Source of the DNA: Kiritimatiellia bacterium
GTDB taxonomy: Bacteria; Verrucomicrobiota; Kiritimatiellia; RFP12; UBA1067
Length of the DNA: 64,000 bases
Assembly (NCBI GenBank): GCA_017514235.1
Contig: JAFWKK010000012.1
Span: forward strand, 1-64,000
Direction: 5' to 3'
This document shows positions 1 to 9,283 of the stretch, piece after piece. A model generated the notes under the pieces. That model had not been told where the DNA came from, did not search any database, and worked only from the letters and a program-made list of their open reading frames with translations. The position numbers and the translations under genes were made by a program. How positions within the stretch are numbered: the first letter of the stretch is position 1; each line of letters opens with the position of its first letter.

Positions 1-89
1 AGGTAATCTGCACAGTCTTGATCGGTTGAGAACCAATCAAGGAACTCCTCAAAGTTCTTCGGATATGGATGTTCGGTAGTCGCTTTCAT
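1..89 (-). CDS. IS1595-family transposase, N-terminal fragment (cut by window edge)
   Basis: Reading leftward from an ATG at 89, the 29 visible codons begin MKATTEHPYPKNFEEFLDWF and continue to an Asp-Cys-Ala-Asp-Tyr-Leu stretch. This is how IS1595-family transposases usually begin: a short lead, then a conserved Trp-Phe-x-Thr-(Asp/Glu) and a Cys of the N-terminal zinc ribbon just before the edge. The rest, including the DDE-type catalytic domain, lies outside the window. A good sigma-70 promoter (TTGACG, 17-bp spacer, TACCAT) sits only 7 nt before the ATG. The family call rests on a short stretch and could shift to a related insertion-sequence family. Confidence 0.6.
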   Translation of the reverse strand, partial: MKATTEHPYPKNFEEFLDWFSTDQDCADY

Positions 90-96
90 GCCTGAA

Positions 97-125
97 ATGG
101 TATCACAATCTGCAAGGCCCGTCAA
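97..125 (-). promoter_or_regulatory. Promoter of the IS1595-like transposase
   Basis: On the minus strand TTGACG (125-120) is followed after 17 bp by TACCAT (102-97), preceded by TG-A (an extended -10). The -10 ends 7 nt before the ATG at 89, so transcription should begin at or next to the start codon. Confidence 0.5.
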
Positions 126-141
126 TCAGCCACCCAGTAAA

Positions 142-897
142 TTAAATTTCCAAAAAACTTGAAAAATGGTTAGGCAACAATTTCAGTAGGCAAGCAGAAT
201 CTCCGACATCAAAGAAATCACGTGTCATAGCCAATTGATCTATAACACGCACGAGATTTCTGGGAGCCGACGGTCCCTTTCCCCCTGCACCACGACGCAG
301 AATGCCCTTCTTTTTGTCAAAATAGAGCTCATTGACAACAGCCAAATACGCAGGGTTGTGAACAACATCATACCTTGATGTAATCTGTTCTGTTATATCC
401 GGCAGGGTGTTTATCTTATGGGTCAGAACTGCTCTGCAAATATCAGGCATTTCTCGATAATAGAAATATAAATAATACGGTCCTGCCAGAAAATGTCTGT
501 ATTGCCTCTGATAGTTGTCAGGTACATAAATTAACTTGGCTTGCTCTCCTAAGCAAACCTTCCCGCCCTTTGTCTTCACCGACTGCGGCAAATACACCAT
601 CACGAGCCAAGTCCAGAAGCCGACGTCTTCGCGGTAGGCCTGCGGGTTGTGGTCGTGGATGAGCGAGTCGAAGTATTCGCAGAAGGCGAAGGTCGTGTCG
701 AAGGTGCGCGTCTCGTCGAGGTCGAGGTCCGCGAGCGCGGGGATTACGTCGGAGTAGGCGGGCGAGGAAAGCAGCGTCGCGCGGGTGAACGGCTGGCCGT
801 CCAGCGTCACGTTCTCCACGTCGTTCGACTCCTTGACCGCCGCGAGGAACGCGCGCGTCTTCGCGACGCCGGCATCTGTAAAGCGACGCAGCTTCAT
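142..897 (-). CDS. Hypothetical protein, last gene of the ATPase cassette (DUF6339-like shape)
   Basis: A 251-residue protein with no signal peptide or membrane segment. The C-terminal part has a Gly-Ala-Gly-Gly-Lys-Gly-Pro-Ser loop (about 203-210) followed by a conserved-looking helix (about 213-230) and ends in Leu-Leu-Pro-Asn-His-Phe. From memory this resembles short DUF6339-type proteins of defence-like operons; I cannot confirm it and no function is known. Its ATG overlaps the stop of the ORF6N gene by 4 nt (ATGA), so it is the fourth gene of the leftward operon. The DNA is mosaic: the first 100 codons (about 600-897) are GC-rich like the ATPase gene, the rest (142-600) is clearly AT-richer. 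That suggests recombination within the gene or loss and replacement of its 3' part next to the insertion sequence. Confidence 0.6.
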   Translation of the reverse strand: MKLRRFTDAGVAKTRAFLAAVKESNDVENVTLDGQPFTRATLLSSPAYSDVIPALADLDLDETRTFDTTFAFCEYFDSLIHDHNPQAYREDVGFWTWLVMVYLPQSVKTKGGKVCLGEQAKLIYVPDNYQRQYRHFLAGPYYLYFYYREMPDICRAVLTHKINTLPDITEQITSRYDVVHNPAYLAVVNELYFDKKKGILRRGAGGKGPSAPRNLVRVIDQLAMTRDFFDVGDSACLLKLLPNHFSSFLEI

Positions 898-1877
898 TTG
901 GCATACTCCTTCCGCGCCGATGTCGCATTGCGCAGATTGGCAAGAAGTCCCGGTATCACGGAATCACCCATCTTCGAAATACCAAACGTGAGCCTTCCGG
1001 CATCCTTCAACGATGCACCAATTGCATAAATTTCAACATTGTCGATGATGATGAATCGATCATGGCAAATTCCGCATATCGACTTCGTGAACTTGCCGCA
1101 TTGCTTGCCGAACGCTTCGAAATCGCTCTCCTCAAGTTCTCCGTTAGAATGCGTGATAAGCTCGACTTTCACGCCGCGCCCGCGTTTCGCAAGGATGTCG
1201 AGCGTCGCTACGCCAGGATAGGCGTCTACCACGACAAGCTCTTTCTTTGCGCGGCGGATGATTTTGACAAGCAGAGACTTCGCATCCCAAAACCTGTTCT
1301 GGTAGAATATCTGGCAGTTTGGGACTTCGCCTTCTCCCATCTTCCTGAAAATCTCGTCAAACCGCGCCTCGTTGCGAGACTGGTCGGTTATCTGACGGCG
1401 TTCGACGGTCTCCAGCCTCGTCAACATGGGCACCATCATCGAAAGCGATCTTCTCATGTTAACAAAGGCATTCATTATCCGTATGCTTACGGCCACTGCC
1501 ACATCGCTTTTCAGCACTCCGGACAACATGGCTATGCCCTGTTCGGTAAATGCATAAGGCAACTTGTGATATCCGCCACGCGTTTCCTGCCCAGCATTTC
1601 GTTTTGATGTAACAATTTGTGATATCAAAACTTCGTTTTCTTCTTTTGACAATTGAAAGCGGAACCCTTCAGGGAAGCGATTGGCATTACGTTTGACAGC
1701 TTGATTAAACACGGAGGTTGTAACTTGATAAGCCGCAGCCAAATCTCTGTCGAGCATGACCTGAACGCCTCGAATCGTGTATATAACGGAACGAATGTCG
1801 AATTGATCGTCATTTATGATCACGTTGTCGCCCATGAGATCAACATCCTTCTTGATCATAGCGTTACCCTTCTTCAT
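894..1877 (-). CDS. ORF6N-domain protein with PLD-like C-terminal region
   Basis: A 327-residue protein starting at MKKGNAMIKK. This start is preferred over longer in-frame ones because its ATG forms an ATGA overlap with the stop of the upstream gene at 1874. Residues about 27-120 are an ORF6N domain (putative DNA-binding domain of phage and accessory proteins): Ile-Arg-Gly-Val-Gln-Val-Met-Leu-Asp-Arg-Asp-Leu-Ala, then a Phe-Pro-x-x-Phe-Arg-Phe-Gln-Leu segment and Ala-Phe-Thr-Glu-Gln-Gly-Ile-Ala-Met-Leu. A coiled stretch follows. The C-terminal half has HDRFIIID, matching the H-x-(K/R)-x4-D pattern of phospholipase-D-like proteins, then GASLKDAG. The architecture is known in accessory ORF6N proteins. 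The gene is AT-richer than the genes before it and looks inserted into the operon. Role in DNA binding or nucleic-acid cleavage is inferred only. Confidence 0.75.
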   Translation of the reverse strand: MKKGNAMIKKDVDLMGDNVIINDDQFDIRSVIYTIRGVQVMLDRDLAAAYQVTTSVFNQAVKRNANRFPEGFRFQLSKEENEVLISQIVTSKRNAGQETRGGYHKLPYAFTEQGIAMLSGVLKSDVAVAVSIRIMNAFVNMRRSLSMMVPMLTRLETVERRQITDQSRNEARFDEIFRKMGEGEVPNCQIFYQNRFWDAKSLLVKIIRRAKKELVVVDAYPGVATLDILAKRGRGVKVELITHSNGELEESDFEAFGKQCGKFTKSICGICHDRFIIIDNVEIYAIGASLKDAGRLTFGISKMGDSVIPGLLANLRNATSARKEYAK

Positions 1878-2629
1878 TCCGCATCGTCCTTCCACTGGTT
1901 CGCGATTTCGGCAAGGCCCTTGCCGCGCACGAACGCCTGGACCGCAGAGTCGATCCACTTCCTGATGGCGTCCTTGTCGTCATCGCGGTCGTCGCCGCCT
2001 GCAAGCTGCGGGAACTCCTCCGCGCCCAGCGCGCGGGCGAAGAGCTTCCAGTCTTCCGTCCATTCGCCCAGCTCGTCGGCGTCGTTTTCGATGAACGCGT
2101 ATGTCAGGATTTCGCGTATGACCGCCGGGAAGACAAGCGCGAGGAAGTAGTTCATCTGCACGACCTGCTTTTCCAGCGACGCGTTTATCGCGAGGTTCGG
2201 CCCGTCGTCCGTATAGACGATCTCCCAGACGTTCTCGTTCTCCTTCGGCAGGCGCATGAGCGGCAGGATGCAGTCCGCCGCGCCGCCCTCGTCGTTCTCC
2301 GCGCGAAACGACTTGCTCATTCCGAGGATCGTCTTGTCGGCATTGGCCGCGACGACCTTCGTCCGGAAGCGGATGCCCATCAGGTCGTCCCCGAACGCGG
2401 CCAGCGACGTGTCGCGCGGCGCGGCGATTGCGCCGACGGTGCCGAAGTCGAAGCGGAGCAGCTGGTTCTTGCGGTAGGCCTCGACGTACAGCTTGGCCGT
2501 CGGGTCGAAATCATATTGCGCCAGGTCGAACGCCGCGGAGAACGCGCTGCCGCCGATGGAGGACACGACGACGCGCAGCGAGGACTTCGCGATCTCCTTG
2601 CGCTTCGTGTAGTTAAAGCTCCGCGCCAT
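1874..2629 (-). CDS. Hypothetical protein of the ATPase cassette
   Basis: A 251-residue soluble protein beginning MARSFNYTKRKEI and rich in Asp/Glu near its C-terminus. I do not recognise a domain. Its ATG lies 17 nt inside the end of the ATPase gene, and its stop overlaps the ORF6N gene by 4 nt, so it should be translationally coupled to both and probably works with the ATPase. A hydrophobic stretch around residues 145-160 looks like a buried helix rather than a membrane segment. Base composition matches the ATPase gene, so the two probably travelled together. Likely a partner or adaptor of the GHKL ATPase, by position only. Confidence 0.55.
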   Translation of the reverse strand: MARSFNYTKRKEIAKSSLRVVVSSIGGSAFSAAFDLAQYDFDPTAKLYVEAYRKNQLLRFDFGTVGAIAAPRDTSLAAFGDDLMGIRFRTKVVAANADKTILGMSKSFRAENDEGGAADCILPLMRLPKENENVWEIVYTDDGPNLAINASLEKQVVQMNYFLALVFPAVIREILTYAFIENDADELGEWTEDWKLFARALGAEEFPQLAGGDDRDDDKDAIRKWIDSAVQAFVRGKGLAEIANQWKDDAE

Positions 2630-4619
2630 CGGCCTCCTCCTTCAGTTCCTCGGAATGGGGGATGACCCTGAGGTCCCTGTTGGCGTCAAAGCCGCGCACC
2701 GTCAGCTTGAAGTCCTTTGTCGCCTCCGTCACCCTGACGCGCAGCCTGTTTGCGGCGGGGAATTCCACAGGGAGCTCCACGGGCTCCCAGGACACGGAAA
2801 GCGATCCTTTCTTCTTGAACGAAAAGTCGTTCTCGTCGAACTTCACCTTGCCGCTCAGCGTCTCGTAGAAGAACGAGACCTTGAGGTCGAACGGCTTGAA
2901 GTTCTTTATGTTCGCCTTGATGGCTATGCCCGAGTCGTCTCCGTCCTTCACCGGGTAGATCGTGTAGGGCTTCGGCTTGGATTCCATCTCCTCGAAGTTC
3001 GGCGGCTGGTCCTTCTCGTTGGCCCCGCCGCTTTCCTGCGAGTCCTTCGCGCCGCCCTGTCCAAAGCCTTTCCCCGCGCCCTTGCCCTTGCGCAAGGTCG
3101 CGAGGCTCTTTGCGCGCGAGACGAAGAAGATGTTCTTCAGCGTCGAGCGGTCGAGCGCCTTCTCCGTCTCGTCGATGCGGTCCACGAGGCGGCGGACCGC
3201 CTTGACGACGAAGTCGATGTGTTCGCCGGGATACTTGTAGATTTCCTTGAACTCCCCGGTGTTGACGCGCCACTCGCTATGGCTTGGCGGTTCGGCCTGG
3301 TTGAGCATGTCGGAGACGGCTCCGTCGATCAGCACGACGGAGACGAAGTTGGCCACGGGGTGGGGCCGCACGCGGTTGATGTAGAGTCCGGCGCGATAGA
3401 ACCAAGGGCGGGCGACCGTTCCGGCGGAACGGCGGATGACGACCTTGAACTCTCCGAGCTTGTCCCGTTTCGCCTTCTTCTCCGCGACGCGCATCGGCAC
3501 CACGATCGTGACAGGCTTGCCTGTTTCGCCGTCCGCCTCGGTTTTGTCCAGTTCCTCGCGAATCGCGGCGAGGGTGGATTCCTCGAACACCTTGTCCTGC
3601 CATGCCGGGCATTCGCCCGGGTAGAGATTCAGAGGGAACGTGAGGGGTGACGTCATGCCCTCGCAGATCATCTGGAACGCCTGAAGAAGCTTCTTGGATT
3701 CCGGGTCCTGGACGGACAGGTCGGCGAGGAAGCGCTCGATGTTCTCAAGATGCGCGCTATCGTATACGACCTTGTCGCCGTCGCCATTCTCCAGCTCGAC
3801 CTGCAACTCGCCGCGCACGAACGAGACCATGTAGTTTTCTACGAGCACGCGCTGGATTTCGTTCCAGTCCAAGTCCTTCACGTATGGGACGACAACGGAG
3901 AGTCCCGGCTCGGTCGTGCGGCTCAGGTTGAATGCCTGCTTGAATTCCGCAATCGCCGACAAATCCGTCTCAGGCCTTGCATCGCCGGATGACAGCAAAC
4001 CCCACCAGCCGTCCGGCGTATAGCGGGTGTTGTCAACGGTGTGAAACGAAAGCAGGGCTTTCCCGCACAGGATTTCGCGTGGTTCGTCGAATTCGCGAAT
4101 CGAGTAGGCGAAGAACGAGCGCAGCTTGCTGGCAATCGGGAACACCACTTTGCCGATACCCCATCTGCCGCGGGTCCCGTCGCCTTTCTCCGACTGGTTT
4201 TCGCTCCAGAAGAAGCGGTAATACGGGGGCTTTTTCTTGATGTTTGTATAGTCCCAGTCGATGTGTCCGGTAAGACCGGTCGTATTGAAGTCCTCTATCG
4301 CGACAAACGGGCAGTCGCCGTCGGGAAGGTCGCCGATCTTGCAGTCCTCGGCCACGTAGTGTTCGGCTGCTCCGGCAAGATACTTGGCGTAGGCGGCCTT
4401 GTTGAGCGGTTTCGCCTTGCCGGAGTAATAAATGCGCACGAGGGCGGGGCTCGACTGGGACACGAGGCTTTCGCACTTCGCGTGGGCGTCAAGGGAGTTC
4501 TGGATGGCCTCGCGGACGAGGGATTCTTCGGTGGAGCGGTTCGAGGTGAAATACTCGTCCCAGCCGGGGTCGCGCTCGACCTCGACTTTGCTCTTCTTCC
4601 TGAAGAACCACTCCGCCAT
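2613..4619 (-). CDS. GHKL (HSP90/MutL-like) ATPase, probable defence-operon protein
   Basis: A 668-residue protein with the Bergerat ATP-binding fold at the N-terminus. The N box is REAIQNSLDA (about 36-45), where Asn should hold Mg-ATP; the G1 box is EDFNTTGL after residue 100; the glycine lid is GRWGIGK (about 150-157). The central part contains a MutL-like transducer-type region. A low-complexity Gly/Lys/Gln stretch (about 518-540) links to a C-terminal beta-rich domain. No histidine-kinase H box or MutL endonuclease motif is visible. Stand-alone GHKL ATPases followed by small unknown proteins are frequent in anti-phage islands, and an insertion sequence and ORF6N gene are next door; a defence role is therefore inferred. 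First gene of a four-gene overlapping operon. Confidence 0.75.
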   Translation of the reverse strand: MAEWFFRKKSKVEVERDPGWDEYFTSNRSTEESLVREAIQNSLDAHAKCESLVSQSSPALVRIYYSGKAKPLNKAAYAKYLAGAAEHYVAEDCKIGDLPDGDCPFVAIEDFNTTGLTGHIDWDYTNIKKKPPYYRFFWSENQSEKGDGTRGRWGIGKVVFPIASKLRSFFAYSIREFDEPREILCGKALLSFHTVDNTRYTPDGWWGLLSSGDARPETDLSAIAEFKQAFNLSRTTEPGLSVVVPYVKDLDWNEIQRVLVENYMVSFVRGELQVELENGDGDKVVYDSAHLENIERFLADLSVQDPESKKLLQAFQMICEGMTSPLTFPLNLYPGECPAWQDKVFEESTLAAIREELDKTEADGETGKPVTIVVPMRVAEKKAKRDKLGEFKVVIRRSAGTVARPWFYRAGLYINRVRPHPVANFVSVVLIDGAVSDMLNQAEPPSHSEWRVNTGEFKEIYKYPGEHIDFVVKAVRRLVDRIDETEKALDRSTLKNIFFVSRAKSLATLRKGKGAGKGFGQGGAKDSQESGGANEKDQPPNFEEMESKPKPYTIYPVKDGDDSGIAIKANIKNFKPFDLKVSFFYETLSGKVKFDENDFSFKKKGSLSVSWEPVELPVEFPAANRLRVRVTEATKDFKLTVRGFDANRDLRVIPHSEELKEEADGAEL

Positions 4620-4645
4620 CTATGTCTGCAGCCTGTCTCTCGTTT

Positions 4646-4907
4646 GCAAACAGAAAGGCGCGCCTCTCTGTTTTGGTTAGAGGGGCGCGCCTTGACACAT
4701 GCTCCTAAAGGCTTACGACGGCCTGCTCAAACACATGTCAAGACGACACCCCAAATTACAATAGGGTACCGTCTTGCAAACCATGCACGAGCTTCTTGAT
4801 GTCGTAATTTCAGGAGACCGGCTTGCAACCGATGGCCGATCCTGTCGGCCTCTCCGCGGCGGTTCTCGTCGCGAAGCTATGAGGTCAAAAGCGTTCCCGT
4901 TTTGACA
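4646..4907 (-). ncRNA. Candidate small RNA or structured leader (about 260 nt)
   Basis: The 397 bases between rtcB and the ATPase gene hold no convincing ORF. On the minus strand there is an extended -10 at 4922-4914, and the terminator at 4693-4655 closes the region. The sequence between is rich in small stems: GCCGA-loop-TCGGC, a CTTGACA/TGTCAAG pair about 40 nt apart, and GGC/GCC pairs. I could not match it to tmRNA, SRP RNA, RNase P RNA or a known riboswitch. It could be an independent small RNA, an attenuated leader of the ATPase cassette, or a decayed gene. Confidence 0.4.
4655..4693 (-). terminator. Strong intrinsic terminator upstream of the ATPase gene
   Basis: On the minus strand AAGGCGCGCC (4693-4684) pairs perfectly with GGCGCGCCTT (4664-4655), extended by CTCT/AGAG, with a 9-nt A-rich loop, and is followed by TTTCTGTTT. 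It lies 35 nt before the ATPase start, so it ends an upstream transcript or acts as an attenuator for the cassette. Confidence 0.6.
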
Positions 4908-4913
4908 ATGGGT

Positions 4914-4922
4914 ATTTTATCA
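4914..4922 (-). promoter_or_regulatory. Extended -10 promoter of the leader RNA
   Basis: Minus strand TGATAAAAT (TG-A plus TAAAAT) with a predicted start near 4907. No good -35 hexamer is visible 17 bp upstream, which is common for extended -10 promoters. It lies just downstream of the rtcB terminator. Confidence 0.4.
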
Positions 4923-5016: not shown

Positions 5017-6252
5017 TCAGCCCTTGAGGCTGGCAAGCGGAATGAGGCGAACAAGCGGCTCTACAAGGTCGCGCTCGGACGCGATCACGTCCTCGATGTC
5101 CTTGTACGCCTGGGGCGCCTCGGAGAGATCAAGCCGCCCCTTCGCCTTGCCGAAGCCGCGGTACTTGTGCCACCGTTCGCACACGATGCCGTCCATCGCC
5201 TTGTCGCACTCTTCCACAGTGAGCGTGGTCGAGGCGGCGACGCGGCTCATGCGTCGGCCCGCGCCGTGCGAGCAGCTCGTGAACGAGTCGGGATTGCCGA
5301 GCCCGCGCACGACGTAGCTCGCCGTGCCCATCGAACCGGGAATGATCCCGATCTCGTCGAGCTTCGCCGACGTCGCGCCCTTGCGGTGCACGAACACCTT
5401 CCTCCCGAAGTGCTCCTCGCACGCCGCGTAGTTGTGGTGGATGTCGATCGTGCGGACGAAGTCCGCCTCCGGGACGAACTCCGCAACGGTCTCCTTCATC
5501 GCCTCCATCATGCGGCGGCGGTTCTCCTTCGCGTAGCGGAGCGCGAAGAGCATGTCAGTGAAGTAGTTTTGCCCGTCCTCCTCCGCCATCGGCAGGAACG
5601 CGAGGTCCGGATCGGCGAGCGGCACGCGGAAGTGCGTGCACAGGCGGTTCGCGATGCGGTGATAGTGCTCCTCGATTCGCTTGCCGAGGTTGCGCGAGCC
5701 GGAGTGGATCATGAGCCACACCTTCGCGCCTCCGGCGGGATCGCCCGAGCCGTCGAGCGAAGTCGTCTTCTGCAGCTCTATGAAGTGGTTGCCTCCGCCG
5801 AGCGTCCCGAGGTTCATGCGATCCAGTTTTGACGGCCAGAGGCTCGATCGCATGCCGTTGTTCGCCGCGTACTCCTCGAATCCCTCCCAGTCCTGCGCCG
5901 CCTTGTGCGATTCGCCCTCTCCGACGGGAATGCGCTCCTTCAGCCGCTCCTGGAACGCGCGGCGGAACGACATGTCCGCAAAGCGCTCCGCCGGGATGTC
6001 CGTCTCTGTCGCGATCATGCCGCAGCCGATGTCGACCCCGACGGCAGCCGGGATGACGGCGCCATCGGCCGCGATGACTCCGCCGATGGGCATGCCGTAG
6101 CCCTGATGCGCGTCAGGCATGAGCGCGACATGGTGGAAGAGCGCCGGGTGCCGCGCAAGGTTCGCGGCCTGCTTAACCGCGCCATCCTCGCAGTTCTCGC
6201 ACCAGCTCTTCACGGGCATCGCCCACCCGTCCTCGATCTTCGCCCACTTCAT
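5017..6252 (-). CDS. rtcB: RNA-splicing ligase RtcB
   Basis: A 411-residue GTP- and Mn-dependent RNA ligase that joins 2',3'-cyclic-phosphate or 3'-phosphate ends to 5'-OH ends, in tRNA or stress-damaged RNA repair. It aligns with E. coli RtcB nearly end to end, including the final Lys-Gly. Visible motifs: MPDAHQG (45-51), GVDIGCGM (72-79, metal-binding Cys77), GGGNHFIE (152-159), HSGSR (183-187), IHHNY (271-275), GSMGTASYVVRGLGN (306-320) and SCSHGAGR (326-333), whose His329 is the expected guanylation site. No archease gene is nearby. SD AAGGAAG precedes the ATG. It is the last gene of a sigma-54-driven operon, 35 nt after rtcA, so it should be made under RtcR control. Confidence 0.97.
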   Translation of the reverse strand: MKWAKIEDGWAMPVKSWCENCEDGAVKQAANLARHPALFHHVALMPDAHQGYGMPIGGVIAADGAVIPAAVGVDIGCGMIATETDIPAERFADMSFRRAFQERLKERIPVGEGESHKAAQDWEGFEEYAANNGMRSSLWPSKLDRMNLGTLGGGNHFIELQKTTSLDGSGDPAGGAKVWLMIHSGSRNLGKRIEEHYHRIANRLCTHFRVPLADPDLAFLPMAEEDGQNYFTDMLFALRYAKENRRRMMEAMKETVAEFVPEADFVRTIDIHHNYAACEEHFGRKVFVHRKGATSAKLDEIGIIPGSMGTASYVVRGLGNPDSFTSCSHGAGRRMSRVAASTTLTVEECDKAMDGIVCERWHKYRGFGKAKGRLDLSEAPQAYKDIEDVIASERDLVEPLVRLIPLASLKG

Positions 6253-6287
6253 TTTCTTCTTCCTTTCTTGCCAGTTTCACATCCCAC

Positions 6288-7313
6288 TCATGCATGCAAT
6301 CCGAACATCGATATAACGTCGCGGTTAGTCGTGTAGTGCAACGTCTCCTTCTTGACGGCGAGAGTCCAGTTGTCATGCCATTCGAACCCGGGGTTATACC
6401 TCGAATAACCTCCTACGAACATCTCCAGCGGCACAAGCAACTGGTCGGCGAGATGCTTCTCGCACGCCTTGTCGGACTTCACGAACTCGCGAACCTGCTT
6501 GACGACTTCGTGCGCGACCGCCTTGCGCGACTTCTCATAGGTGCCGACGGACGAGAAGACGACCGACGTGCGCTCGTAGTCGAGCTGCGCATAGCAGTAG
6601 TTGCCAGGTCCGAACGACTCCACGCGCCGCGTCTCGCATCGAAGGCCAAGGTCCGCAAGCTGCTTCGCGACGATGCCGACCTCCGCTTCCGCAATTGAAT
6701 CTGGAATCGCCGAGACGACACCGACGACCTTTCCGCCGCGATACGAGCCGAGGTCCGTGAGCGAGTAGTCCTTTGCTGTCTTCTCCTCGTCGAGCGGCCA
6801 CACTCCGAGCCTCGCGACGCCACCCGCCGCAGGATAGAATCCACACGTATCCAGCTCCGCCTCGACGCGCGCGCCAATCCGTCGAAGCTCGGGAAGGTAC
6901 GTTTCGGCGAAAAACTCCCAAATCGGCGCGAAAGGCACGTGCGTCCCGCCGGTGATCGTCACCGTCGAGGGCGCGTCAGCCTTCATCAGCACCGGCAGGA
7001 CCGTCTGTGCGACGAGCGTGACGCTGCCGGCCGTACCGACATCGAAGCGGTAGTCGCCGCCCCTGATTGCGCCCGGGACGAACTCCAGCTCGCCCGAGCC
7101 AACCTCGACGTCGGACGTTTTCGCGCCGCAAATCGCCGCGACGGCCTTCACGCACGTCAGGTGCTGGCGCTTCAGCCCCGGCTTCTCGCGTCCGGCGCGG
7201 ATCTTCTCGATCCAAACCGGATTCCCGGTGACCGCGCTCAGCGTCAGCGAGGTGCGGAGCACCTGGCCTCCGCCCTCGCCCTGCGCACCGTCTATCTCAA
7301 CGAAGTCTTTCAT
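6288..7313 (-). CDS. rtcA: RNA 3'-terminal phosphate cyclase RtcA
   Basis: A 341-residue enzyme that uses ATP to convert RNA 3'-phosphates to 2',3'-cyclic phosphates, making substrates for RtcB. Visible family features: GAQGEGGGQVLRTSL near the N-terminus, KPGLKRQHLTCV, GGDYRFDVGTAGSVTLVAQTVLP, and near the C-terminus LHYTTN, which places the adenylated catalytic His at about 326, as in the SCHLLTN region of E. coli RtcA. Length fits the family (338 in E. coli). The start is 19 nt after the stop of a 48-codon ORF, and its only SD-like sequence (AGGCGG) is inside a hairpin. Followed by rtcB after 35 nt. Confidence 0.96.
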   Translation of the reverse strand: MKDFVEIDGAQGEGGGQVLRTSLTLSAVTGNPVWIEKIRAGREKPGLKRQHLTCVKAVAAICGAKTSDVEVGSGELEFVPGAIRGGDYRFDVGTAGSVTLVAQTVLPVLMKADAPSTVTITGGTHVPFAPIWEFFAETYLPELRRIGARVEAELDTCGFYPAAGGVARLGVWPLDEEKTAKDYSLTDLGSYRGGKVVGVVSAIPDSIAEAEVGIVAKQLADLGLRCETRRVESFGPGNYCYAQLDYERTSVVFSSVGTYEKSRKAVAHEVVKQVREFVKSDKACEKHLADQLLVPLEMFVGGYSRYNPGFEWHDNWTLAVKKETLHYTTNRDVISMFGLHA

Positions 7314-7323
7314 TGCGCATCAA

Positions 7324-7340
7324 CCGCCTGCGTCAGGCGG
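7324..7340 (-). promoter_or_regulatory. Hairpin covering the small-ORF stop codon and the rtcA Shine-Dalgarno
   Basis: CCGCCTG and CAGGCGG form a 7-bp stem with a 3-nt loop. On the mRNA the TGA stop of the 48-codon ORF lies in the stem, and the AGGCGG that would serve rtcA is in its 3' arm. Ribosomes finishing the small ORF would open it, suggesting translational coupling. Confidence 0.5.
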
Positions 7341-7479
7341 ACTTTCGTTCTCGTTTGCGTTTCCTGCGCTCGATCTCGGCCTTGGCCAGCTTGCCGTATT
7401 CGCCGTCGGCGGCGGCCGCCTTGTCGAGCTCCTTTGTGTTCATCTTGCGCAGATGTCCCTTTATCCCGCATGCGTTCAT
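7333..7479 (-). CDS. 48-residue basic protein, first ORF of the rtc operon
   Basis: Begins MNACGIKGHLRKMNT and ends in a highly basic helix (Glu-Ile-Glu-Arg-Arg-Lys-Arg-Lys-Arg-Glu-Arg-Lys). I do not recognise the family. The start is well supported: GAAAGGAG lies 7 nt before the ATG, and the predicted sigma-54 start (about 7527) gives a 48-nt leader. Longer in-frame starts lie upstream of that transcription start. It is co-transcribed with rtcA and rtcB and sits first, so RtcR should induce it strongly. Its charge suggests RNA or ribosome binding; that is inference. It may instead act as a leader peptide controlling rtcA translation. Confidence 0.65.
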   Translation of the reverse strand: MNACGIKGHLRKMNTKELDKAAAADGEYGKLAKAEIERRKRKRERKSA

Positions 7480-7537
7480 TCGATTTCTCCTTTCGTTGGT
7501 GTTTTCGCGTTGTACCGTTGGCGACGACAATAGCATT

Positions 7538-7553
7538 AGCACAAGCCGTGCCA
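7538..7553 (-). promoter_or_regulatory. Sigma-54 promoter of the small ORF-rtcA-rtcB operon
   Basis: Minus strand TGGCACGGCTTGTGCT matches the sigma-54 consensus TGGCACG-N4-TTGC(A/T) with the -24 GG and -12 GC exactly 12 bp apart. It faces the operon, 48 nt of leader from the predicted start, and the divergent gene encodes RtcR, the expected sigma-54 activator. Confidence 0.85.
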
Positions 7554-7630
7554 ACGGCAGTATTCGAGGGAGTTCGCGGGGCTGGCGCGGCAGATGAGAG
7601 ATATGAAATTATAGACCCTATCCTACGGTA

Positions 7631-7659
7631 TAGACGCATGCGGCGTGATATGGTACAAT
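7631..7659 (+). promoter_or_regulatory. rtcR promoter, leaderless type
   Basis: TAGACG (7631-7636), 17-bp spacer, TACAAT (7654-7659) preceded by TG-G. The -10 ends 7 nt before the rtcR ATG, so the transcript should start at the start codon; no SD is present. Confidence 0.6.
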
Positions 7660-7666
7660 TCGCGCC

Positions 7667-9283
7667 ATGAAGACAACTGCCATATCGGTTCTCGGGACAC
7701 AAAAGGACGCACATGGCGGGGCCGGCCCCGCACGCTGGGACACGTGGCGGCCGACCATCGGCCTCGTCCAGCAGGAAAGCCTTCCCATCGACGAGCTGCA
7801 CCTCATACTCAACAAGGAGTTCATGCCGCTGGCGGAACGCGTCAAGGCGGACATCAAGTCGGTCTCGCCCGAGACCAAGGTCGTCTTCGACATAGTGCAG
7901 CTCAAGGATCCCTGGGACTTCGAGGAAGTGTACGGCAAGTTCTACGACTACGCGAAGTCCCCCTGCTTCCACAAGGAGAAAACCGACTACTACATCCACA
8001 TCTCCACCGGCTCGCACGTGGAGCAGATATGCCTGTTCCTGCTTGCGGAGTCGCGCCACCTCGCGGCAAAGCTCGTGCAGACTTCGCCGAAGGAGGGGCA
8101 CGTGCGCCACTCGCACGACCCAAAGGGCACGATCAACGTCATCGACCTCGACCTCTCGCGCTACGACAAGCTCGCCAAGCGCTTCGAGCTCGAGCGGCAG
8201 GACGACCTCTCCTTCCTGAAGAGGGGCATAGACACGAAAAACGCCGCGTTCAACAAGCTCATCGAGACGATCGAGCGGGTGGCGGTGCGATCCTCGTCGC
8301 CCATACTGCTGACAGGCCCGACAGGCGCAGGCAAAAGCCAGCTCGCGGAGCAGATTTACCTTCTCAAGAAGCAGTCCGGCAAGGTCAAGGGGACGTTCGT
8401 CGCCGTCAACTGCGCGACGCTCGGCGGAGATCTCGCGAAGTCAGCCCTGTTCGGACACAAGAAAGGCGCGTATTCCGGCGCGGGCGCGGACCACGACGGG
8501 TTCCTCAAGGAGGCCGACGGCGGCATCGTGTTCCTGGACGAGATCGGGGAGCTGCCGCTTGAAGCGCAGGCGATGCTGCTCAAGGCGATAGAGGAGAAGT
8601 GCTTCCGTCCGCTCGGCGCGGCAAAGGACGAACACAGCGACTTCCAGCTGATCTGCGGCACCAACCGCGACCTGGCGCTGGACGTGGCCGACAAGCGCTT
8701 CCGCGCGGACCTCCTCTCAAGGATCAACCTCTGGAGCTTCAGCCTGCCGGGGCTTGCCGAACGGCGCGAGGACATCGAGCCGAACCTGGCGTACGAGCTT
8801 GCACGGTTCTCGGAGAAGTCCGGCAAGCACATCTCCTTCAGCAAAGAGGCTCGCAAACGCTTCATGGACTTCGCGCTCGCCCCGTCCAACAGCTGGCCGG
8901 GGAACTTCCGCGACCTGAACGCCATGATAGTGCGAATGGCGACGCTTTCCGACGGCGGACGCATAACGGAGGATGTCGTGGCGGACGAAATCGCGCGATC
9001 TTCGCCAGGCGCACAAGCAGTCACGGCGCCATCGGCAGGCGCCATCGACGGCCAGACCCTCTCAGCGCTCCTGGGCAGCGACTACGCCGTGAGGTTCGAC
9101 GACTTCGACCTCGTGCAGTTCGCCCACGTCGCCGCAGTCTGCTGCGCTTCGGACTCCGCGGCGGACGCCGCGAAAAAGCTGTTCGCGGTCTCGCGCATGG
9201 CGAAGAAGTCGAACAACGACTCCGACAGGCTGACCAAGTATCTCTCCCGCTTCGGCGTCAAGTTCAAGGACATCAAGCAATAG
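7667..9283 (+). CDS. rtcR: Sigma-54-dependent transcriptional activator RtcR
   Basis: A 538-residue regulator of RNA repair genes. Residues 1-180 match the RtcR N-terminal domain (a CARF-type ligand-sensing fold): ISVLGTQKD at the start, IDELHLI, and THYYIH-like DYYIHISTGSHVEQI. The AAA+ domain has Walker A GPTGAGKS (about 226-233), a sigma-54 contact loop GAYSGA in place of GAFTGA (about 268-273), Walker B GGIVFLDEIGELP and an arginine-finger segment around FRADLLSRIN. The C-terminus holds the short DNA-binding region (AAKKLFAVSR onward). Family length is about 530. RtcR is thought to bind RNA ends bearing cyclic phosphates or related nucleotides and then activate sigma-54 RNA polymerase. 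Divergent from, and expected to activate, the promoter at 7538-7553. Confidence 0.95.
   Translation: MKTTAISVLGTQKDAHGGAGPARWDTWRPTIGLVQQESLPIDELHLILNKEFMPLAERVKADIKSVSPETKVVFDIVQLKDPWDFEEVYGKFYDYAKSPCFHKEKTDYYIHISTGSHVEQICLFLLAESRHLAAKLVQTSPKEGHVRHSHDPKGTINVIDLDLSRYDKLAKRFELERQDDLSFLKRGIDTKNAAFNKLIETIERVAVRSSSPILLTGPTGAGKSQLAEQIYLLKKQSGKVKGTFVAVNCATLGGDLAKSALFGHKKGAYSGAGADHDGFLKEADGGIVFLDEIGELPLEAQAMLLKAIEEKCFRPLGAAKDEHSDFQLICGTNRDLALDVADKRFRADLLSRINLWSFSLPGLAERREDIEPNLAYELARFSEKSGKHISFSKEARKRFMDFALAPSNSWPGNFRDLNAMIVRMATLSDGGRITEDVVADEIARSSPGAQAVTAPSAGAIDGQTLSALLGSDYAVRFDDFDLVQFAHVAAVCCASDSAADAAKKLFAVSRMAKKSNNDSDRLTKYLSRFGVKFKDIKQ

Follow-up and report, generated by a model that had tools for sequence, protein, structure and literature searches.

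A cassette of four overlapping genes at one end of a 64,000-nucleotide (nt) stretch from a Kiritimatiellia bacterium (positions 1 to 64,000 of contig JAFWKK010000012.1, assembly GCA_017514235.1; hereafter the window) contains a conserved set of three genes, encoding a GHKL-type ATPase and two partner proteins that we call U2 and U4, together with an ORF6N-domain gene between U2 and U4 and a structured leader RNA ahead of the ATPase. On balance we favor the explanation that the cassette is a mobile defense module linked to restriction-modification (R-M), in which the ATPase, U2 and U4 would form the core, the PLD-like gene a cargo effector and the leader an attenuator. The initial annotation had treated the four genes as one candidate system; their layout on the minus strand, with overlaps of 17, 4 and 4 nt (open reading frame [ORF] coordinates, 142-4619), was confirmed, and we likewise came across no named system that has this set of genes, but the conserved unit is the three genes ATPase-U2-U4 and the ORF6N gene is an extra. 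The features are listed below with lengths in amino acids (aa).

2613..4619, minus strand: GHKL-type ATPase, paraMORC2-like, 668 aa; homologous to PADLOC PDC-M33A
1874..2629, minus strand: U2, conserved partner without a family model, 251 aa
894..1877, minus strand: ORF6N domain plus PLD-like end (HxRx4D), cargo gene, PADLOC PDC-S05; 327 aa if the start is the ATG overlapping the U2 stop
142..897, minus strand: U4, conserved partner, 251 aa; weak profile similarity to PDC-M33C / DUF6339
4638..4922, minus strand: structured leader RNA; a -10-like box marks its 5' end, and an intrinsic terminator lies close to its 3' end
4656..4692, minus strand: leader terminator hairpin, then TTTCTGTTT; the stem ends 37 nt upstream of the ATPase start
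1..138, minus strand: insertion-element end with the first transposase codons, 3 base pairs (bp) past the U4 stop; contig end

A conserved triad and its restriction-modification neighbors

Conservation was evaluated at 91 loci, comprising 11 earlier loci and the 80 best from a genome scan that found at least 323 relatives; the set includes at least two repeated contigs (L013/L026 and L014/L073), no flank is longer than about 10 kb, and many of the contigs are short. Homologs of U2 occur at 77 of these loci, always consecutive with the ATPase and on the same strand, and homologs of U4 at 69, where ATPase, U2 and U4 are consecutive on one strand. U2 and U4 overlap in 49 of the 69 and lie within 26 nt of each other in 67 (start codons were picked near the end of U2, which favors overlap). 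The recurrence of the ATPase-unknown pair in unrelated genomes, proposed in the initial annotation as a check, is thereby borne out: by record title the relatives belong to Verrucomicrobia, Planctomycetes, Proteobacteria, Bacteroidota, Chloroflexi, Actinobacteria (Arthrobacter, Paenarthrobacter), Nitrospirae, Desulfobacterales, two archaeal bins and others, the nearest being titled Verrucomicrobia and Kiritimatiellae. U2 and U4, recorded there as unrecognized, do lack a family model; the window proteins match nothing in the Pfam, NCBIfam or PADLOC models, and 60 U4 and 66 U2 family members gave only scattered, chance-level matches to Pfam. Window U4 retains the conserved carboxyl-terminal family residues L241, P242 and F245. 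Comparison of U2, U4 and the ATPase with the sequences of solved structures returned nothing credible.

The identification of the first gene as a GHKL ATPase stood. It matches PADLOC PDC-M33A (expectation value [E] 1.1e-19, best stretch residues 22-278; profile against profile, E 1.2e-30), with no Pfam match at E up to 1, and six of six aligned ATPases are invariant at E37/N41/D44, D110, G151/G154/G156/K157 and E443/H447/W450, residues that we take to be those of GHKL-like motifs. The last group includes an ExxxH motif (E443-x-x-x-H447) that is also present in PDC-M33A, with which the longer form ExxxHxxW is held in common. In its phylum, 12 of 387 sampled genomes match the ATPase, counting its own genome and three weak matches. 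A quick tree of 80 ATPases carrying 20 phylum labels requires 33 label changes (least possible 19, shuffled 52.7), and the spread is thus partly vertical and partly mixed, with long branches making the details unsure.

The ATPase does not come from new territory. In their description of the family, Iyer et al. 2008 (PMC2292703) characterize paraMORC2 by ExxxH, a motif placed late in the S5 domain, and predict that MORC and paraMORC ATPases act in R-M systems; judged by the described motifs, our ATPase fits paraMORC2. The GHKL motifs, ExxxH and neighborhoods with a C5 methylase plus Vsr are common to both, whereas the text of that description is without a fixed partner pair (its figure 2 may show one), a cargo slot or a leader.

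A C5 methyltransferase lies near 40 of the 91 loci, Vsr near 27, Mrr near 4, and either C5 or Vsr near 41; directly flanking the module are C5 in 24 loci and Vsr in 6 (with L013 and L026 being one contig). For these counts the identity of C5, Mrr and other partners was established on representatives, Vsr was recognized by eye and then by similarity, and Vsr and Mrr were the two kinds of nuclease searched for.

The closest known arrangement is PADLOC PDC-M33, which has the same gene order (ATPase, about 280 aa, about 250 aa) with short overlaps or gaps, a homologous ATPase, and C5 methyltransferase and Vsr neighbors. At one of our loci (L023) PDC-M33A, B and C all match, in that order, with a C5 methyltransferase preceding them. 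In two plasmid PDC-M33 loci the triad order is the same; one has Vsr, a C5 methyltransferase and a nuclease of the AlwI family as neighbors, and the other an N-6 methylase, an S subunit and other R-M genes. Gene C on these plasmids is annotated DUF6339 in the records, and a literature search found no paper naming either DUF6339 or PDC-M33. A five-member U4 profile shows weak similarity to PDC-M33C / DUF6339 (E 1.3e-4, 54% probability; mismatched controls, E 0.28 and 0.31). A DUF6339 identity for U4, suggested by locus L022, found no backing among 60 U4 members, none of which matches DUF6339, or in the single L022 protein, whose match is not significant. The search against defense-system models advised by the initial annotation succeeded for the ATPase (PDC-M33A) and the ORF6N gene (PDC-S05) and gave nothing for U2 and U4. 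Given the common ATPase and layout, the module probably works as PDC-M33 does; we do not claim membership in PDC-M33 proper, because the B model fails.

Other systems are more distant. VcSduA (Shedu type I-D, with a domain organization earlier annotated as paraMORC3) is a tested defense protein (PMC12137116), and resembles the system proposed here in pairing a GHKL ATPase with a nuclease in phage defense; its nuclease is fused to the ATPase, in contrast to the window ATPase, in which no Pfam domain is found. The R-M-linked HEF_HK / Response_reg_2 systems, as presented in PMC8011034, likewise place a GHKL protein beside a C5 methylase, but with another ATPase family and other partners; one operon of this type follows short copies of the leader in L149.

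The slot between U2 and U4

The ORF6N/PLD-like gene meets both of its neighbors in exact ATGA overlaps. As the initial annotation held, it has an ORF6N domain (Pfam E 1.9e-31) and an HxRx4D motif, present as HDRFIIID, in its PLD-like end; the whole gene matches PADLOC PDC-S05 (E 8.4e-100). At none of the 91 fetched loci does such a gene stand between U2 and U4, and the sole ORF6N gene among them (in L027) lies outside the triad. A system of four genes was rejected on this count.

In L024, with an ATPase 71% identical to that of the window, a gene with DUF4062 and HATPase_c_4 follows U2 with the same ATGA overlap (the contig stops before the expected position of U4), and on this basis the ORF6N/PLD-like gene looks like cargo. 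At the same rtcB site in G390, a genome of the same genus, most of the ATPase and U2 is missing, as is the end of U4, and a stretch of 781 bp that takes in the start of U4 and the carboxyl-terminal part of the ORF6N/PLD gene matches the window at 92% identity (locus L123). Comparison of L123 7318-8268 with window 894-1877 shows a nearly identical carboxyl-terminal part joined to a different ORF6N variant, apparently a domain swap by recombination. Copies of the PDC-S05 family are found on two other contigs of the window's own genome. Together, the L024 gene, the L123 variant and these copies indicate that the U2-U4 slot is exchangeable in this lineage, and the cargo gene is likely to be an effector.

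Decayed relatives of the window cassette outside the 91 loci (L123 and L192) retain ORF6N sequence. By eye, L192 8203-8338 shows a leader copy followed by a chimeric ORF composed of an ATPase start, an ORF6N fragment and another fragment, which is apparently the deletion scar of a window-like cassette.

The leader RNA and the surroundings

The candidate leader RNA of the initial annotation, about 285 nt long, is upheld by its fold (z -5.1) and by covariation. We drew by hand a model of eight helices, one of which forms a pseudoknot. Under this model 94.0% of 553 cells are paired, both members vary in 19 of 70 pairs, and covariation is 0.294 against 0.189 when shuffled, with none of 500 shuffles as high in pairing, double changes or covariation. 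Of the five measures taken, the one for further pair types is weaker (51 versus 46.7 shuffled; 20 of 500 shuffles as high), and sliding the partner strands reduces pairing to 36-48%. The central helix, HB, forms 7 of 7 pairs in every one of 13 copies, which among them have 11 different 5' strands (91 of 91 positions; the best of 100,000 swaps gave 85). Helix HA is less perfect (6/7 in L157, 6/7 in L195 and 5/7 in L108). HB and HA strands were picked by eye, which favors pairing, and the control swaps partners among copies. The decayed L123 leader is mismatched (HB 6/7, HA 5/7); as a mismatched mosaic it was excluded from one helix shuffle, and the 13-copy test is also without it. Rfam 15 gave no match over the leader at E up to 1, and its matches in 18 loci surrounding core copies, with E allowed up to 0.5, were two tRNAs only. 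The leader appears to be a new RNA family.

A competing helix could pair the 3' half of hairpin H5 plus the linker with the 5' arm of the terminator (in the core form, it would form the terminator itself). Because a leader helix can compete for this arm, the leader is probably an attenuator, and regulated read-through would be the natural mode of expression where the gap between terminator and gene is short. A literature search found no paper on attenuation of R-M genes by a leader, nor any on an RNA motif of this kind; a survey from 2017 that covers 224 RNA motifs fell outside the scope of that search.

Eight full-length leaders were found, all of them before R-M or GHKL genes (three before the window cassette or a remnant of it, five before other operons); several come from one genus, so that the eight copies are not independent. 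A core model (R3), applied to 387 genomes with an E cut-off of 0.01, finds matches in 26 that are spread across the phylum. One match (L232) lies inside a coding gene and looks false; with it excluded and strands set by eye, HB is complete in 20 of 24 core loci, and 164 of 168 positions pair against a shuffled mean of 97.5. Core copies precede many kinds of gene. The first gene is a restriction or DNA-modification gene in 5 of 25 loci (L206, C5; L229, L213 and L214, Type ISP; L217, Nmad3), the Type ISP assignment being from Pfam on L194 (the same place as L229) and from a common start for L213 and L214; elsewhere it is, for example, a glycosyltransferase or a GFO/IDH oxidoreductase, or is unrecognized. 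We therefore dropped an 'R-M only' reading for the core RNA. In L108 a core copy lies between the third gene of a PDC-M33 set and a C5 methyltransferase. Short copies of the 5' domain also stand before other genes (L144, L145, L149, L154, L189, L190, L191 and L155), among them, by eye, HNH-like, Nudix-like and nucleotidyltransferase-like genes.

The window begins at base 1 of contig C82 of a host assembly of 3.96 Mb, 92% complete. The adjoining transposase of the initial annotation is present as its first codons at an insertion-element end (presumably IS1595-like). This end recurs in the genome in 13 nearly full copies, and 9 of these open a contig, so that assembly breaks hide the region beyond U4. 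On the other side the cassette adjoins the RNA-repair genes RtcB, RtcA and a divergent RtcR (window 5017-9283); its site is downstream of rtcB in the window and in G390 (with one extra gene between in G390), and not in L024.

Proposed mechanism, alternatives and significance

In the mechanism that we propose, the ATPase, U2 and U4 would be made together through translational coupling, the ATPase dimer would close on DNA as MutL or MORC does, and U2 and U4 would supply recognition or assembly. With a C5 methyltransferase and Vsr or Mrr nearby, the complex may discriminate unmarked DNA and hand it to the nuclease; in the window genome the PLD-like protein encoded in the U2-U4 slot would be the likely effector, presumably as a nuclease. 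Transcription from the leader's own putative promoter would have to pass the terminator ahead of the ATPase, and an attenuator leader would keep the module low until a signal arrives. The module is thus probably a divergent PDC-M33-like, R-M-linked one, with PLD-like cargo in this genome, and its role is probably anti-phage.

A number of results weigh against this explanation. The PADLOC B and C models do not match window U2 and U4, and U2 compared with the PDC-M33B profile reaches only E 0.011 (probability 4%). The PLD-like end stays under the Pfam cut-off (PLDc_2, 17.3 bits versus 27). No PF00145 methyltransferase was found in the 92% complete host genome (other methyltransferase families were not searched), and hence no complete type II R-M system of the C5 kind, with its cognate C5 methyltransferase, was seen there; C5 enzymes do occur in relatives. 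Searching phage and plasmid records with the ATPase (tblastn) gave no match, and viral contigs gave none in a first scan and a single relative in a second (L109, where by eye U2- and U4-like genes follow the ATPase relative). In a Planctomycetota branch of 14 loci, 11 are without U4, 7 of these also without U2, and C5, Vsr and Mrr are absent from the surroundings of all 14. The leader models R1 and R2 (run on 86 and 83 sources, respectively, not on every locus) detected no leader at the searched module loci of other lineages, and none at L013/L026, L025, L029 or L085, which are the nearest relatives among Kiritimatiellae; the exceptions among relatives are a leader in L024 and the core copy in L108. 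Finally, among 17 leaders the competing helix reaches a z of -3 or below in 11 and falls short of that in 6, a count in which segments were set by pattern and are displaced in several rows (the cause of several of the six failures) and L226 has no anchor.

Some of these results would suit a module that serves methylation-tied DNA repair or chromosome maintenance in the manner of MutL and Vsr, its defense-like spread reflecting the R-M genes that accompany it. Vsr is the commoner of the two nuclease kinds and repairs deamination at methylated sites, as is established and as stated in PMC8011034. The Planctomycetota branch, mostly without U4 and without such neighbors, also has two or three loci in common surroundings: L031 and L043 (and L030 in part) carry an ATPase-U2 pair without U4 amid shared flanking genes, possibly a domesticated form, and conserved non-island positions, which the initial annotation had named as evidence against a defense system, may hold for this one branch. 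We nevertheless consider a repair role quite improbable, given the patchy distribution across the phylum sample, the different operons behind the same leader, the cargo slot of L024 and the window, and a host with no PF00145 enzyme. A chance passenger that the module does not use is a possible, if rather doubtful, account of the ORF6N/PLD-like gene: none of the 69 other full-triad loci has it inside the triad, its family has copies elsewhere in the genome, and at the rtcB site of G390 it is still present although most of the ATPase and U2 has been lost. The two exact ATGA junctions, the different gene with the same overlap in the same slot of L024, and a carboxyl-terminal part that is almost the same in the window and L123, next to ORF6N parts that differ, argue instead for use of the gene.

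As for the leader, we tentatively propose, as somewhat short of an even chance, that it belongs to a new class of regulatory RNA, phylum-wide in extent, pseudoknotted and with two states, one long version of which has become a common control unit for exchangeable R-M and GHKL modules. It might instead have no part in regulating R-M and be a common promoter and recombination platform for operon exchange, in keeping with the ATPase-start remnants seen by eye behind the leader in L144, L148, L149, L192 and L123, the short 5'-domain copies before genes of other kinds, and phylum core copies mostly before genes not recognized as R-M. We regard this as unlikely, because structure is kept along the full length of the leader and the covarying helix of the core persists throughout the phylum in front of genes that are unrelated, conservation that a mere recombination site would not need.

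The favored reading of the cassette as a mobile, R-M-linked defense module joins an orphan PADLOC candidate and the old paraMORC prediction into one conserved three-gene module, two members of which, U2 and U4, occur in many phyla and match no family model searched. Its leader, belonging to a class unmatched by Rfam 15, offers a testable idea for how mobile restriction systems may be restrained on arrival: if the proposed class is real, any operon swapped in behind the leader would come under the same attenuator, and this would be a first shared RNA switch for restriction systems.

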